Below, piece by piece: positions 6,838 to 46,675 of a DNA stretch of 64,000 bases. The position numbers and the translations under genes are program-made. Source of the DNA: a virus; the IMG/VR virus record IMGVR_UViG_3300032675_000001, positions 248,001-312,000 of that record; one strand, 5' to 3'. The number at the start of each line of letters is the position of its first letter. The first letter of the stretch is position 1. Below the pieces are notes generated by a model. It searched no databases. It was not told where the DNA came from and saw only the letters and a list, made by a program, of their open reading frames with translations.

Positions 6838-6845
6838 GATAAATA
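6838..6845 (+). promoter_or_regulatory. Late promoter GATAAATA
   Basis: Octamer 50 bases before the outer-membrane protein gene. The leader then has the palindrome GACACATGTGTC and a TAAGGA Shine-Dalgarno. Confidence 0.65.
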
Positions 6846-41195: not shown

Positions 41196-41816
41196 TCAAG
41201 GCCGCTTTGCTACGATTTTATCTGCAAGACCGTATTCTACGGCTTCGGAAGCAGACAGGAACGTATCAAACTTCATAGTTTCAAACAGTTCCTCATAGGT
41301 CTTGCCAGCAGTGTTATGCTCAACATACAACTGAGTCAGGCGCTCATTGATCTTCTTGGATTCTTCCAAGTGCCGCCGAGCATCTTCAAATTCAAGTTCC
41401 TGAACATGAACAGAGCCGCTTGTACCACGAGTACCAGAACTGACACGATGAATCATGGTGCGAGATTGTGGAAGAACAATGCGCTTGCCGGGTGATCCTG
41501 CCATAGCAAGAAACGAACCCATAGAACATGCCTGACCCATAACGATTGTGGAAACGTCAGGCTTAATGAAGTTCATTGTATCATAGATTGCAAGTCCAGC
41601 AGTTACCGAACCGCCCGGCGAGTTGATATAAAGCGAAATATCAGCATCAGGGTCTTCTGACTCAAGGAAGAGCAACTGCGCAACGATAAGATTTGCCATC
41701 TGGTCATGAACTTGACCTTCAAGAAGAATCACACGATCCCTGAGCAAGCGAGAGTAGATGTCATACGACCGCTCACCGCGAGAGGTCTGTTCAATAACGA
41801 TAGGTACGAGACTCAT
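41196..41816 (-). CDS. clpP: ATP-dependent Clp protease proteolytic subunit
   Basis: 206 residues and closely bacterial: [48 protein letters not shown] (Ser98), TMIHRVSSG (His123) and [18 protein letters not shown] (Asp184), so the triad is complete. The segment between His and Asp is about 12 residues longer than in E. coli, in the handle helix that controls ring stacking. Forms the protease chamber fed by ClpX. A GATTTCACCC/GGGATGAAAT inverted repeat lies in its leader. Confidence 0.93.
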
Positions 41817-41840
41817 TTAAAATCCTTTTGTTGAGTGAGG

Positions 41841-41869
41841 ATTTCACCCTACATCATATAGGGATGAAA
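41841..41869 (-). promoter_or_regulatory. Inverted repeat in the clpP leader
   Basis: ATTTCACCCT pairs with AGGGATGAAAT around ATGATGT. It may be a hairpin or an operator; a poor promoter (TTGCAT-17-TAGGGT) overlaps it. Confidence 0.4.
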
Positions 41870-41921
41870 TGCAAGAGATTTTGTGACCGATTATAGATTT
41901 ATTGTTTGCGTAATATGGAGC

Positions 41922-41929
41922 CATAAATA
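41922..41929 (+). promoter_or_regulatory. Late promoter CATAAATA
   Basis: Thirty-four bases before ATG 41964, with a TAGGAGAC RBS between. Reads the two plus-strand genes of the Clp region. Confidence 0.65.
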
Positions 41930-41963
41930 GTTATGGGAAATCCAAACCCTATAGGAGACTCAT

Positions 41964-42311
41964 ATGGAAATCGTAATCATTGCGGCATTAGCCATTTTGG
42001 GATATGTCGTTTACAGAAGCCTTGATAATAAAGAAAGCCCAATCAAGGTTGTAGAAGCAAAGGTAGAAGTTGCTGCTACAGAAGTTGAAAAGGTAGCAGA
42101 AACTGTTGTTGAAGTTGCTACTGAAACTACTGAGGTTGCTGCAAAGGCTGCTACTAAGACAACCAAGTCAGTTGCCAAGAAAGCAGAAAATGCAGCTAAG
42201 TCTACTGCTAAGAAGGCAGAAAAAGTAGTTGAAGACGTAGCCAAGGACGTTGAAGCACCTGTTAAAAAGCCACGTGCACCGCGCAAGCCAAAGTTGAACG
42301 TAGCAAAATAA
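41964..42311 (+). CDS. Membrane-anchored Ala/Lys-rich (histone H1-like) protein
   Basis: 115 residues. One N-terminal membrane helix (IVIIAALAILGYVVY), then repeats of the type VAxEVEKVAETV and basic SVAKKAENAAKSTAKKAEKV, ending in a Pro/Arg/Lys tail. The C-terminal 50 residues resemble H1-like DNA-binding tails. It could tether DNA or acidic partners to the membrane. Late. Confidence 0.7.
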   Translation: MEIVIIAALAILGYVVYRSLDNKESPIKVVEAKVEVAATEVEKVAETVVEVATETTEVAAKAATKTTKSVAKKAENAAKSTAKKAEKVVEDVAKDVEAPVKKPRAPRKPKLNVAK

Positions 42312-42315
42312 TCTA

Positions 42316-43017
42316 ATGCAAACTGAAGTGGGTTTTGATTTAATCAGTGATCTTTTTCTCTCACCGGAAGACAGTTTCAACTGGGAGAATAAGGCTACAA
42401 GTCTGTATTGTATCGTAGCAGGGAATATCAGTTCTGATCTAAGAACGGTCATTCACACCTTAGCACATCTTGGTAGGCAATATCAAGAAGTGTTCTATAT
42501 TCCGGGATACTTAGAATATGAAACAGCAGACAGTGTAGTTGTGAGAACTGAACAACTCAAAACCATTTCAGCAAGCATAAAAAATGTATGCATGTTATAT
42601 CAAAATGTTGCAACCATTGACGGAGTTGCCGTTGTAGGTGTGAATGGGTGGAGCAATGTTGGTGATACTTTTACTGTAGAAAATGTATTTGAAACTGCAG
42701 CCAGACATGAAGACTTTGAATATCTATATAAGGCATTAGGAAGACTTCAGAGACACTTGGACATCAGAAAGATCGTTGTAGTATCAAGTGCAGTCCCACA
42801 TTATTCATTATATTTTGGGGAAAAACCAATCATAACGGACGATCAAGTGCCATTATGTGCAACCTTAGCTAATGATACTGAGCATAAGGTTGCACATTGG
42901 GCATTTGGAACTTATGAAAAGAATGTTGATACAATCGTAGAAGATATCAACTACATTAATAATCCATATCTACATCAAACGCCATATTGGCCAAAACGAA
43001 TCACTGTATCAGTTTGA
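42316..43017 (+). CDS. Degenerate calcineurin-like phosphoesterase
   Basis: 233 residues, collinear with the active enzyme at 27798, but every metal-binding block is altered: ISDLFLS (for SDLHL), VAGNIS (for SGD), IPGYLEYE (for SGNHEFY), VVSSAVPHYS (for VVGHMAPS) and FGTY (for THGHMH). The fold is probably kept while catalysis is lost, so it may be a binding or regulatory pseudo-enzyme. Four bases after the H1-like gene in the same late unit. Confidence 0.7.
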   Translation: MQTEVGFDLISDLFLSPEDSFNWENKATSLYCIVAGNISSDLRTVIHTLAHLGRQYQEVFYIPGYLEYETADSVVVRTEQLKTISASIKNVCMLYQNVATIDGVAVVGVNGWSNVGDTFTVENVFETAARHEDFEYLYKALGRLQRHLDIRKIVVVSSAVPHYSLYFGEKPIITDDQVPLCATLANDTEHKVAHWAFGTYEKNVDTIVEDINYINNPYLHQTPYWPKRITVSV

Positions 43018-43317
43018 TTCGGCTTCTACCTTGACCTGCAATGGGTAGTTGTGTGCTCGTGCATCAAGTGTAACTTCAATGCCTTTTTGTTCAGCCACCT
43101 CATAAGGAAGAACAGCAACCACGGCGCTTCCCTTTTCATGAACATCAACCGTGATCTGCGTAGCAGTATCAGGATTGTAGTTAAAATACTCAATCAGTGA
43201 GTTAACCACGAATTCCATGGAAGTATGATCATCATTCATATAGATGACCTTGAACAAAGGTGGTTCCTTCAATGCGAGATTTGGCTTAATCTTACTGGTT
43301 GGTTCTGCATTCGGCAT
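43009..43317 (-). CDS. clpS: ClpS adaptor
   Basis: 102 residues from ATG 43317. PPLFKVIYMNDDHTSMEFVV, then SLIEYFNYNPDTATQITVDV-HEKGSAVV and LPYEVAEQKGI, the ClpS fold with NDD..T..EFV and VH.KG, which bind N-degron substrates. ClpS normally serves ClpA or ClpC; only ClpX is encoded here. Late promoter TATAAATA and a 9-bp hairpin precede it. Confidence 0.9.
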   Translation of the reverse strand: MPNAEPTSKIKPNLALKEPPLFKVIYMNDDHTSMEFVVNSLIEYFNYNPDTATQITVDVHEKGSAVVAVLPYEVAEQKGIEVTLDARAHNYPLQVKVEAESN

Positions 43318-43338
43318 TGTATTAATCCTTGTTATGAT

Positions 43339-43364
43339 GCTTGCGGGCACCATTACCCGCAAGC
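43339..43364 (-). promoter_or_regulatory. 9-bp hairpin in the clpS leader
   Basis: GCTTGCGGG/CCCGCAAGC around TAATGGTG, between the late promoter and RBS. No T run, so a leader structure rather than a terminator. Confidence 0.5.
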
Positions 43365-43371
43365 ACAATAT

Positions 43372-43379
43372 TATTTATA
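43372..43379 (-). promoter_or_regulatory. Perfect T4 late promoter TATAAATA
   Basis: Exact T4 consensus, right after the hsp20 stop, 55 bases before clpS. Confidence 0.8.
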
Positions 43380-43832
43380 TCACTTCTTGTATGTGATTGC
43401 AATGGTTTTTGGCTTCTGTTCCTCAGGAACTTTTCTTTCAAGTTCAATTCTGAGAATGCCGTTTTTCGCGTGTGCCTTTGTCACTTCTACGTGATCAGCA
43501 AGCGTGAAGGTGCGAGTAAAGCTACGAGCCGAAATACCACGGTGCAAATACTCAATCTCCTTATCAAGTTCGTCCAGAGATTGGGTTTGTTCACCCTTGA
43601 TTGTGAGAAGACTCTTCTCCAATGTGATGTGAACATCACCTTCGTTAAACCCAGCAACAGCAAGTTCGATGGTGAAGTTATCATCATCGCGCTTTATGAT
43701 ATTGTAGGGAGGGTAGTTTGTTGCTTGTTGTGCAGTGTTTCGCATGATATCGTCAAATACTGAGTCAAATCCTACTGCGAACTTATGAATAGACGGAATG
43801 TCTAGGGCACGAAGGGTTAGTTGATTAGTCAT
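43380..43832 (-). CDS. Small heat-shock protein (Hsp20/IbpA type)
   Basis: 150 residues with an alpha-crystallin domain: YPPYNIIKRDDDNFTIELAV, LEKSLLTIKGEQ, RGISARSFTRTFTLADHVEV and AKNGILRIELERKVPEEQKP. This is the IbpA/B pattern. Binds unfolded proteins for refolding or proteolysis. Own late promoter (43890) with a TTGTAGA/TCTACAA leader hairpin and AAAGGAGA RBS. Confidence 0.92.
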   Translation of the reverse strand: MTNQLTLRALDIPSIHKFAVGFDSVFDDIMRNTAQQATNYPPYNIIKRDDDNFTIELAVAGFNEGDVHITLEKSLLTIKGEQTQSLDELDKEIEYLHRGISARSFTRTFTLADHVEVTKAHAKNGILRIELERKVPEEQKPKTIAITYKK

Positions 43833-43889
43833 GTTTTTATCTCCTTTTAAGCAAGACTATATTGTAGACCCATTAGGCATCTACAACAT

Positions 43890-43897
43890 TATTTATC
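43890..43897 (-). promoter_or_regulatory. Late promoter GATAAATA of hsp20
   Basis: Between clpX and hsp20, 57 bases before the start, followed by the hairpin TTGTAGA/TCTACAA (43861-43885). Confidence 0.7.
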
Positions 43898-43931
43898 ATA
43901 CACTATTTCGCAAAAAAGTAAAGTTTTTTGG

Positions 43932-45128
43932 TCAAATAAGTGCTTTTGGTGATTCAATCAAATCGGTATCAATGACCAGTTCCACAATGTCGTTTTCCTT
44001 ATACTTACGAATATGGAACATGTGAGGCATAAGAACACGTTCAATCTCAGTATGAAGTCCACGTGCGCCAGTTTTAAGGTCAATGCAGTTTTGTGCAATT
44101 TTGTGAATGGCCTCATCAGTGAATGTTAATGTAATGCCATCAAGTTCAAAAAGATACTTATATTGATCAATAAAACTGTTCTTAATGTTGAGCAAGACAT
44201 CTACCAACTGTTCAAGAGTTAGTTCTTCAAGGGTGATGGTGGTAGTAAAACGTCCAATAAACTCTGGAATCATGCCAAAGCGAGTAAGGTCATCTGGTGT
44301 AACCAACTTCAAGTTGGCTGGTTCATTCTTGGAACGAATGTCTGATCCAAATCCAATAGAACTACTATTCGTTCGGTTCTTGATAATACTATCAAGACCG
44401 ACAAATGCACCACCAGCGATGAACAAAATGTTCTTGGTGTCAACCTCAATGTTTTCTCCCTGTGGATGCTTGCGCTTTCCAACTGGACTTACACGGATTT
44501 TAGCACCTTCTACGATCTTGAGTAGTGCTTGTTGAACACCTTCGCCGGATACGTCACGAGTAATGCTTGCGCTCTCGCTCTTGCGAGAAATCTTATCAAT
44601 CTCGTCAATGAATACGATTCCACGTTCAGTCAAAGAAACATCATTGTCTGCATTGGCAAGTAGCATCGCAATCATGGATTCAACGTCTTCGCCAACATAT
44701 CCTGCTTCTGTAAGATTAGTAGCATCTGCAATCACAAACGGGACATTGAGATATTTTGCAACAGTTTTAGCGAGTAGCGTTTTACCGGAACCGGTTGGTC
44801 CAACAAAAAGAACATTGCCCTTCTGAATCTCCAAATCTTTTGGCGGATTGTTAATACGTTTGTAGTGATTTGAGATAGCAACAGCAAGAACTTCCTTAGC
44901 GGAGTCCTGTCCAATAACATGTTGATCAAGATATTCTTTGATGGAATATGCATCAAAGTTGATATCGTCTATCTTTTTAGATTCTGGATTATGTTCTTTA
45001 TCAATAAGTTCATTGCACAGGTCAATACAAATACTGCAAATCGCAACATCTTCGCCTACGATCAGTTTAGTGACTTGATCCTTATGTTTACCGCAAAAAG
45101 AACAGTGGTGTAGTTTTTTATCAGACAT
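43932..45128 (-). CDS. clpX: ATP-dependent Clp protease ATPase subunit
   Basis: 398 residues, complete ClpX: zinc-binding domain (Cys 9, 12, 31, 34), Walker A GPTGSGKT (110-117), pore loop GYVG (143-146), Walker B IVFIDEID, RKH loop (219-221), ClpP-docking IGF loop (258-260), sensor and GARGLH. So it can unfold substrates and dock ClpP. It starts 5 bases after the upstream membrane-protein gene, so it may be coupled to it. Partner ClpP at 41196. Confidence 0.95.
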   Translation of the reverse strand: MSDKKLHHCSFCGKHKDQVTKLIVGEDVAICSICIDLCNELIDKEHNPESKKIDDINFDAYSIKEYLDQHVIGQDSAKEVLAVAISNHYKRINNPPKDLEIQKGNVLFVGPTGSGKTLLAKTVAKYLNVPFVIADATNLTEAGYVGEDVESMIAMLLANADNDVSLTERGIVFIDEIDKISRKSESASITRDVSGEGVQQALLKIVEGAKIRVSPVGKRKHPQGENIEVDTKNILFIAGGAFVGLDSIIKNRTNSSSIGFGSDIRSKNEPANLKLVTPDDLTRFGMIPEFIGRFTTTITLEELTLEQLVDVLLNIKNSFIDQYKYLFELDGITLTFTDEAIHKIAQNCIDLKTGARGLHTEIERVLMPHMFHIRKYKENDIVELVIDTDLIESPKALI

Positions 45129-45133
45129 ATATA

Positions 45134-46675
45134 TTAGTTATCCGTGTTAGTAGTGCGGCGGAGATATTCTTCTATTTGTAGGCGTTCATTTTCGGACAAA
45201 AGCTCAACATCATACTCTCCTGATTCTATCTTAGCTACCAAGTGTCTAAGATACTCTTCATCATAAAGATAGGAATCAGATAGTTCTTTGTTTATCTCAA
45301 TCCAACGAATGCCATCAAACTTATAGACCCTATTTGGTAAAATGTCAACCCTTACAAAGACATCACCTTTGGCAGCAAACTGTGGAAAAGTTGAACCAAA
45401 TCCGGGGCCATTTTTATCATCATCGGGAGTAGCAAGTAAGCGATGTCTCATTCCCAAGAATGCAGACTTATGCATTTGCTTCCCATCAACTTCAACATAT
45501 CCATGTTCCAATTCATGGACAGTTACGCCCTCGGTTTGAATTTCTACTGGTTCAGGCTCTGGGACAGGTTCTGCTTCATGCTGTTCCAGTTCTTCCACAG
45601 ATTCACCTGTGTTGGTAATATGTGCTTCTGGTAGTTCTTCTCCCACCATATCATCTGATTTAGCATCAACTGTTGGTATAGTTTCAGCATCTACTATAAC
45701 CTCCTCAGTATTATTTACTTCTTCTGCTGCTTTTGCGGCTCGTTGCGCGGCAATATCTCCTGCTACATGAAGATCAATTGGACCATCGCCCCATAGGTCA
45801 ATTGTTGGATCAACTTTTCCTTTGGTTTCAAAGAACTTTTCCTTGAAATCATCATCTTCTGGTAGAACACTAAGTTCTTCTTTTTCTTTGCGTAGGTCTT
45901 CTTCAAGCCATTCGTAACTGCTCTGTGCAGCTAGTACGAGTGTCAACGCTAGAGGATCAAAGACAAACACGATAACAATGATTACCCAACGAACAGCACG
46001 TTCAAGGAGGTTGTTGTCTGGATTGTCACCATAGATTAGTGCGGCGATATATTTAATAGGACCTACTTCTGCTTCAACCTTACGCACTTGGGCACGAATA
46101 GGAGCAGCTTGATCGTTTAACGTAGAAATAGTAGCCTGATTGTCTTCTATTTCCTTGTTAAGTCTAGCACGTTCTTTTGTTTGTGATTTACGAATGTTAG
46201 TGGATTGTTGTGCACCCTTAACATCAGTAGAACGCCCCATAACCTGATCAACGGCAGCATCCATTTGTTGCAATGCCTTACGATCAGCATCAATGTTATC
46301 TTTTGCAGTTTGAATCTTCTGATCATAAACTGCGATCTTGGCTTGAACATCCCCGCTTACAAGTGATTGATCACTGTGTGCTTTACTGAGGAATCCAAAA
46401 ATACCCATACTTGTCAAGAACGCAAGCATGATTACAGCGGGAACAAGATACAGTTTCAGTTTCCATCCGGCACGGTTCCAGTAACGGTGCAGCCAGACAG
46501 TTGTTACCACCTTTGCAAATTCAAGTGAGCCGCCCATAATCATAATTGGAACAACTGCAGCAGCAAAAATTGCTGTCAATCCCAATACAGAATACCAAGC
46601 AGCAATACTACTAAGAGTAAGTGCAACAAGAAGCGTTAATGTAGCAAAACTAAATACTTTTCTTAAAAAAATCAT
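45134..46675 (-). CDS. Large membrane protein, coiled coil and acidic linker
   Basis: 513 residues. Three N-terminal membrane helices (about 8-28, 33-55, 76-98), a long coiled coil (about 105-215), a fourth helix (IVIVFVFDPLALTLVLA, about 235-255), an acidic linker and a C-terminal module (KSAFLGMRHRLLATPDDD, FAAKGDVFVRVDILPNRVY). Conserved in T4-like and marine myophages as far as I recall; unknown role. First gene of the clpX unit. CTAAATA lies four bases before its ATG. Confidence 0.75.
   Translation of the reverse strand: MIFLRKVFSFATLTLLVALTLSSIAAWYSVLGLTAIFAAAVVPIMIMGGSLEFAKVVTTVWLHRYWNRAGWKLKLYLVPAVIMLAFLTSMGIFGFLSKAHSDQSLVSGDVQAKIAVYDQKIQTAKDNIDADRKALQQMDAAVDQVMGRSTDVKGAQQSTNIRKSQTKERARLNKEIEDNQATISTLNDQAAPIRAQVRKVEAEVGPIKYIAALIYGDNPDNNLLERAVRWVIIVIVFVFDPLALTLVLAAQSSYEWLEEDLRKEKEELSVLPEDDDFKEKFFETKGKVDPTIDLWGDGPIDLHVAGDIAAQRAAKAAEEVNNTEEVIVDAETIPTVDAKSDDMVGEELPEAHITNTGESVEELEQHEAEPVPEPEPVEIQTEGVTVHELEHGYVEVDGKQMHKSAFLGMRHRLLATPDDDKNGPGFGSTFPQFAAKGDVFVRVDILPNRVYKFDGIRWIEINKELSDSYLYDEEYLRHLVAKIESGEYDVELLSENERLQIEEYLRRTTNTDN

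Follow-up and report, generated by a model that had tools for sequence, protein, structure and literature searches.

Genes for a Clp protease in a phage genome raise the question of whether the phage lends parts to the protease of its host or runs a protease of its own. We analyzed a window of 64,000 bases, i.e., positions 248001-312000 of the 360,683-base virus record IMGVR_UViG_3300032675_000001 (IMG/VR records are not certified complete). A preliminary description had placed clpP, clpS, hsp20 and clpX on the minus strand of this window, and their coordinates and Pfam matches bore this out, with all four open frames intact and giving clear family matches. The same description had missed two plus-strand genes within the interval, at 41964-42311 and 42316-43017, as well as genes for ClpA and DnaJ beyond the window. 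The features of the locus, in window coordinates, are as follows.

41196-41816, minus strand: clpP, 206 aa, long-handle subtype; Pfam PF00574 CLP_protease (9e-68), alignment to solved ClpP chains, and tree
41265-41273, minus strand: K182-F183-D184 of clpP, i.e., KF replacing the E/D-R oligomerisation sensor, followed directly by the catalytic residue D184
41370-41399, minus strand: codons for the 10 inserted handle residues E140-H149, present in 73/73 long-handle ClpPs and 0 short-handle ClpPs
41964-42311, plus strand: small protein with an N-terminal hydrophobic stretch, then Ala/Lys/Val-rich; on the opposite strand between clpP and clpS
42316-43017, plus strand: conserved 233-aa protein, convergent with clpS; weak metallophosphoesterase-like match (phrog_1649, 1.8e-4)
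43009-43317, minus strand: clpS, 102 aa counted from the ATG, with the frame open as far as 43368; Pfam ClpS (1.5e-25)
43372-43379, minus strand: T4-late-type TATAAATA, about 62 bases 5' of the clpS ATG; position conserved in 36/46 distinct relatives
43380-43832, minus strand: hsp20, small heat-shock protein, 150 aa; Pfam HSP20 (1.1e-19), phrog_432 (2e-43)
43890-43897, minus strand: T4-late-type GATAAATA, about 65 bases 5' of the hsp20 ATG; conserved in 35/47 distinct relatives
43932-45128, minus strand: clpX, 398 aa; Pfam zf-C4_ClpX (2.5e-14) and AAA_2 (1e-32)
45134-46675, minus strand: membrane/coiled-coil protein, 513 aa, ending 5 bases before the clpX ATG; sub-threshold DUF4407 match

The 513-aa protein is a probable operon partner of clpX and possibly a membrane anchor or adaptor for the Clp protease. 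The 233-aa protein lacked the usual metal-ligand motifs of metallophosphoesterases in all 20 aligned members, and a search for its relatives among cultured phages, Pfam and the PDB returned none. No family match was found for the small protein encoded at 41964-42311, the gene for which was present in three related loci only. Rfam families gave zero matches in the 38-50 kb portion of the window, and sigma-70-like promoters and terminators occurred at or below chance counts.

We next consider whether the encoded components retain the features of their families. As the preliminary description had stated, the zinc domain, Walker motifs, pore loops and IGF loop of ClpX were all intact (CSFC/CSIC zinc ligands, GPTGSGKT, FIDEID, GYVG, KRKH and SIGFG); its sequence therefore carries the class features, i.e., a C4 zinc domain, Walker A/B, pore loops, IGF loop and sensor II. 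The full catalytic triad claimed for ClpP was likewise found, as S98, H123 and D184 in a CLP_protease fold, the hallmark of S14 peptidases. ClpS aligned to the solved E. coli and Caulobacter ClpS structures and kept the NDD, Met and His residues, which we take to form the N-degron pocket, together with EVAE-K; the residues expected for the pocket and for contact with ClpA are present. A full ClpA was encoded in the same record outside the window (G000:343802-346069 = L083:1348-3615), about 50 kb from the block. This protein, of 755 aa, aligned over residues 5-723 to the solved E. coli ClpA (4e-177) and also to N domains co-crystallised with ClpS; it has an N domain, two AAA+ modules and an IGF at the position of the IGL/IGF loop. 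Because the record encodes ClpA, ClpS has a phage-encoded unfoldase partner, and with a full ClpA besides the block, the phage encodes both ClpXP and a ClpAP-ClpS branch. A DnaJ-domain protein is encoded adjacent to ClpA. FtsH, GroEL and Leu/Phe-tRNA-protein transferase were sought in the record, and none was found.

A full Clp set in one phage had been described as unusual. It proved to be standard in this phage group, is published for Atu_ph07 (PMC6102473), and has a similar counterpart in PA5oct. Our comparison set comprised 80 IMG/VR loci with a ClpX relative (65-100% identity), on contigs of up to 352 kb. The order clpX-hsp20-clpS followed by the opposite-strand 42316 gene was conserved in 63/64 loci where the contig had room for it, the 513-aa protein lay upstream of clpX in 72/73 loci with room, and clpP was located 2-6 kb downstream in all 38 such loci. 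Amongst 17 virus records tested, 15 encoded ClpS and 16 encoded ClpA-type proteins. In records of at least about 245 kb, both ClpA-type and ClpX-type proteins were found in 12/12, and ClpS in all but one, whose ClpX sits at the contig end.

A close cultured parallel is provided by Pseudomonas phage PA5oct (Arenbergviridae; relatives include MIJ3, Paride and Cassandra), which carries clpX, a heat-shock gene, clpS, FtsH, a ligase and clpP within about 11 kb, with ClpA encoded elsewhere and a long-handle ClpP of the KFD type that is marked as detected by mass spectrometry. It differs from the window phage in encoding FtsH and in having no detectable 42316 gene, and its proteins have diverged from those of the window (64% identity for ClpP, 39% for ClpA and 31% for ClpS). 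The Atu_ph07 set consists of ClpX, ClpA, ClpB, ClpP, ClpS and DnaJ, with ClpA and DnaJ adjacent (gp292, gp293) as in the window phage (PMC6102473), and Phosso has a Clp set comparable to those of Atu_ph07 and PA5oct. In Agrobacterium phage Atu_ph07 and Sinorhizobium phages Phosso and AP-J-162, however, the Clp genes are scattered rather than clustered; ClpX of the Atu_ph07 group is about 50% identical to that of the window, and ClpP of Atu_ph07 and Phosso is of the canonical short-handle type, unlike that of the window. Iyer et al. (2021) reported ClpP, ClpS, ClpA and ClpX in group 1, 2.2 and 3 jumbo phages and called their distribution patchy; the parts of that article considered here make no mention of a long-handle subtype or of a conserved cluster (PMC7824862). 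The window phage shares with bacterial ClpXP/ClpAPS the domain layout and motifs of every component, but differs in that the ClpP ring-ring interface is replaced, clpS is clustered with clpX, and hsp20 and clpS stand behind late-type promoter motifs. Huge phages thus commonly bring whole ClpXP and ClpAPS machines, not isolated parts. Complete Clp sets in phages being already known, it is the ClpP subtype that is new.

The preliminary description had noted a ClpP handle region about 12 residues longer than that of E. coli. This difference is real and defines a phage subtype: the H-to-D stretch is extended by the 10-residue insertion E140-H149 and by two further residues that are common to most other phage ClpPs. 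Amongst the best 60 solved ClpP chains, nearly all spanned the window ClpP with approximately 10 to 12 fewer residues. Three further replacements fall at the very elements by which the two heptamers pair: HRV stands for HQP, TSG for QXT, and KF takes the place of the E/D-R oligomerisation sensor ahead of the catalytic Asp. The handle, QXT, HQP and oligomerisation sensor have been assigned to tetradecamer assembly, and we used the motif definitions given there (PMC9035409). The window ClpP accordingly lacks the canonical bacterial tetradecamer interface of HQP, QXT, E/D-R sensor and standard handle. The docking pocket for IGF/IGL loops, for which we assumed a list of hydrophobic residues, had most positions kept or conservatively changed, with Y60 and F112 varying.

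These replacements were close to uniform. The length of the 10-residue insertion and the KF were invariant in 73/73 distinct long-handle ClpPs, PA5oct included; the HQP position read HRV in 72 and HRA in one, and T-x-G replaced QXT in 72/73. The catalytic triad did not vary, and most of the docking pocket was conserved. The full set of features was found in 0/35 short-handle phage ClpPs, which had the sensor Arg in every case and retained HQP in 31, and in 0/68 cellular ClpPs, all of which had both HQP and the sensor Arg. In a separate selection of viral contigs, made only by a match to the codons of MKFDTF(L), the 80 loci fetched contained 76 ClpPs; the handle could be measured in 73 of these, and the H-to-D length was 62 residues in every one. 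The possibility that some bacteria carry the subtype was rejected, as a search of 398 Pseudomonadota genomes gave two pattern matches, neither of them in ClpP. Because the long-handle set was gathered by similarity to the window ClpP or by the MKFD motif, further ClpP variants may exist. As judged from sequence, the long handle marks a discrete, phage-only ClpP subtype in which the ring-ring contact motifs are replaced and the triad and docking pocket are kept; we found no description of it in the open literature searched. A third handle type (HSV, TVW, x-R-D) was seen in loci L009, L024, L038 and L077; it forms the sister group of the long-handle family and perhaps represents an intermediate.

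The origin of the window clpP is composite. The ClpPs of phages, with Atu_ph07 and Phosso among them but not phage G, formed one clade apart from bacteria, within which the long-handle ClpPs were a clade of their own (100/98). ClpX of the window, by comparison, lay deep in a clade (100/100) whose other members have short-handle ClpP. When ClpP was divided, residues 1-120 of the window protein fell within the native short-handle clade (95/97), beside locus L051 (98/83), and the remainder, with insertion columns removed, fell within the long-handle clade (99/95). Identity followed the same division: residues 1-40 were 88% identical to short-handle and 65% to long-handle ClpPs, vs 48% and 80%, respectively, for residues 121-206. 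In a cumulative test the changeover fell near residue 101, after Ser98 and before His123 (p ~1e-4, with columns treated as independent), and identity at the codon level switched at residues ~101-120. On this tree and identity evidence, the window clpP is a mosaic, with residues 1 to ~101 from its own clade and the rest from the long-handle family. Since the two halves fall in different clades, a ring-interface module has recombined into clpP, leaving the docking and pore half native. Replacement of the whole gene was rejected on the same division. Also rejected was a long handle general to this phage clade, there being few carriers among the clpX-syntenic loci, i.e., only the window phage (its own copies) and the close relative L002 (ClpX 93%). 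For PA5oct, the N-terminal half of ClpP grouped with Atu_ph07 and Phosso (99/91), a weaker signal than that for the window, mean identity in this half being 66% with long-handle ClpPs and 67% with Atu_ph07/Phosso. We suggest tentatively, and at somewhat less than even confidence, that huge phages keep a ClpP lineage with a re-engineered ring interface, host-orthogonal and not under control of the canonical oligomerisation sensor, whose C-terminal module spreads from one phage lineage to another by recombination inside clpP while the ClpX-docking half stays native.

Late promoters had been proposed for clpS and hsp20, and late-promoter-like motifs at conserved positions were indeed found before both. 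The T4-type late box NATAAATA was present 65-75 bases before hsp20 in 35/47 distinct upstreams and, mostly 59-78 bases out, before clpS in 36/46, with about three expected in each case. A TATAAATA-like box at a nearly fixed distance, as in T4-type late promoters, thus precedes both genes. Across relatives, the regions 5' of clpP, clpX, the 42316 gene and the ligase showed no enrichment of NATAAATA. By itself, TATAAATA was at chance level in the window (3 found vs 3.3 expected). The GATAAATA form occurred 11 times vs 3.2 expected, a count reached in 0/100 shuffles, with sites mostly immediately 5' of open reading frames, and looks like this phage's own late-promoter form; six of the 11 sites are at 6838, 7552, 9931, 19072, 24522 and 43890. 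Because hsp20 and clpS carry such motifs, a late increase is probable for the holdase and for the ClpA-ClpS N-degron branch. The late timing suggested earlier would accordingly apply to ClpS and Hsp20, but not demonstrably to ClpX and ClpP, before whose genes the late motif was not enriched.

We consider it probable, though well short of certain, that these genes provide a self-sufficient Clp protease belonging to the phage, whose ClpP rings join through an interface of their own and are unlikely to form mixed assemblies with host ClpP, and whose adaptor and chaperone are supplied late. Phage ClpX would feed the barrels of phage ClpP, as would phage ClpA together with the N-degron adaptor ClpS, with Hsp20 and DnaJ supporting the protease. 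The whole ring-pairing apparatus (handle length, HQP, QXT, sensor) has been exchanged, while the docking pocket, axial loops and triad are kept. Because the contact points that join the rings are replaced in ClpP, the phage may run its protease apart from that of the host: phage ClpP would pair ring-to-ring with itself and not with host ClpP, giving a separate protease pool, possibly active without gating by the canonical oligomerisation sensor. ClpS and Hsp20 would, judging by their motifs, be raised during virion production. We infer the assembly of the phage protease, its insulation from host ClpP, its timing and its substrates from sequence.

Other readings place the phage proteins in closer contact with the host machine. 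Phage ClpS, ClpX and ClpA might bring substrates to host ClpP, with phage ClpP merely adding dosage. Docking of the phage unfoldases to host ClpP is plausible because their IGF loops are canonical, and jumbo phages with ClpS but without ClpP exist, for which hijacking of host ClpAP has been proposed in the part of the survey considered here (PMC7824862); however, every large record tested carries its own complete set, and ClpP has diverged at the ring interface instead of remaining host-like, so that we regard this arrangement as rather unlikely. Phage ClpP subunits or rings could also mix with host ClpP, thereby poisoning or redirecting the host protease. Its core and docking pocket are host-like, and bacterial ClpP aligns closely with it over residues 1-101, but the residues that pair the rings are exactly those replaced and all partners are phage-supplied, which leaves mixing unlikely. 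Alternatively, tetradecamers could be weaker for lack of the sensor, and a long-handle ClpP might act as a single ring or other oligomer, without double-ring assembly. Every known ring-pairing motif is indeed gone; yet the replacement is uniform and conserved (KF and insertion in 73/73) and for that reason points to a new interface under selection and not to decay, and we hold a single-ring enzyme to be distinctly improbable.

The two remaining readings concern what the genes are. ClpP matched phrog_94, "head maturation protease" (3.6e-46), but the record also encodes a T4-type prohead protease in its own right, Peptidase_S77 (G000:174843-175286), found in 12 other records as well, which makes a part of ClpP in head maturation very improbable. 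ClpP would thus not be the only prohead protease of the phage; moreover, it is full-length, keeps its docking pocket and is encoded alongside ClpX, ClpS and Hsp20. Finally, the genes resemble their bacterial counterparts, and the preliminary description had allowed for misassembled host DNA. The likelihood of contamination is negligible, given that dozens of metagenomic phage contigs share the block in synteny, that base composition is uniform across the window, and that the phylogenies run for ClpX and ClpP set the clades of this phage group apart from bacteria.

How its two rings are coupled is a central issue in the regulation of ClpP, itself a target for antibiotics. The long-handle enzymes, in which all known coupling motifs are replaced together while triad and docking are kept, amount to a natural experiment on ring pairing and activity, and the isolated phages PA5oct and Paride make them testable. 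Paride replicates in and kills deep-dormant Pseudomonas aeruginosa, according to the part of the report considered here, which mentions no test of its Clp-cluster genes (PMC10761892). Self-supplied proteostasis could plausibly matter in the dormant host of Paride, which we offer as a lead only. Ribosomal protein S21, FtsH and a membrane protein that interacts with FtsH are also encoded in the Clp cluster of PA5oct.
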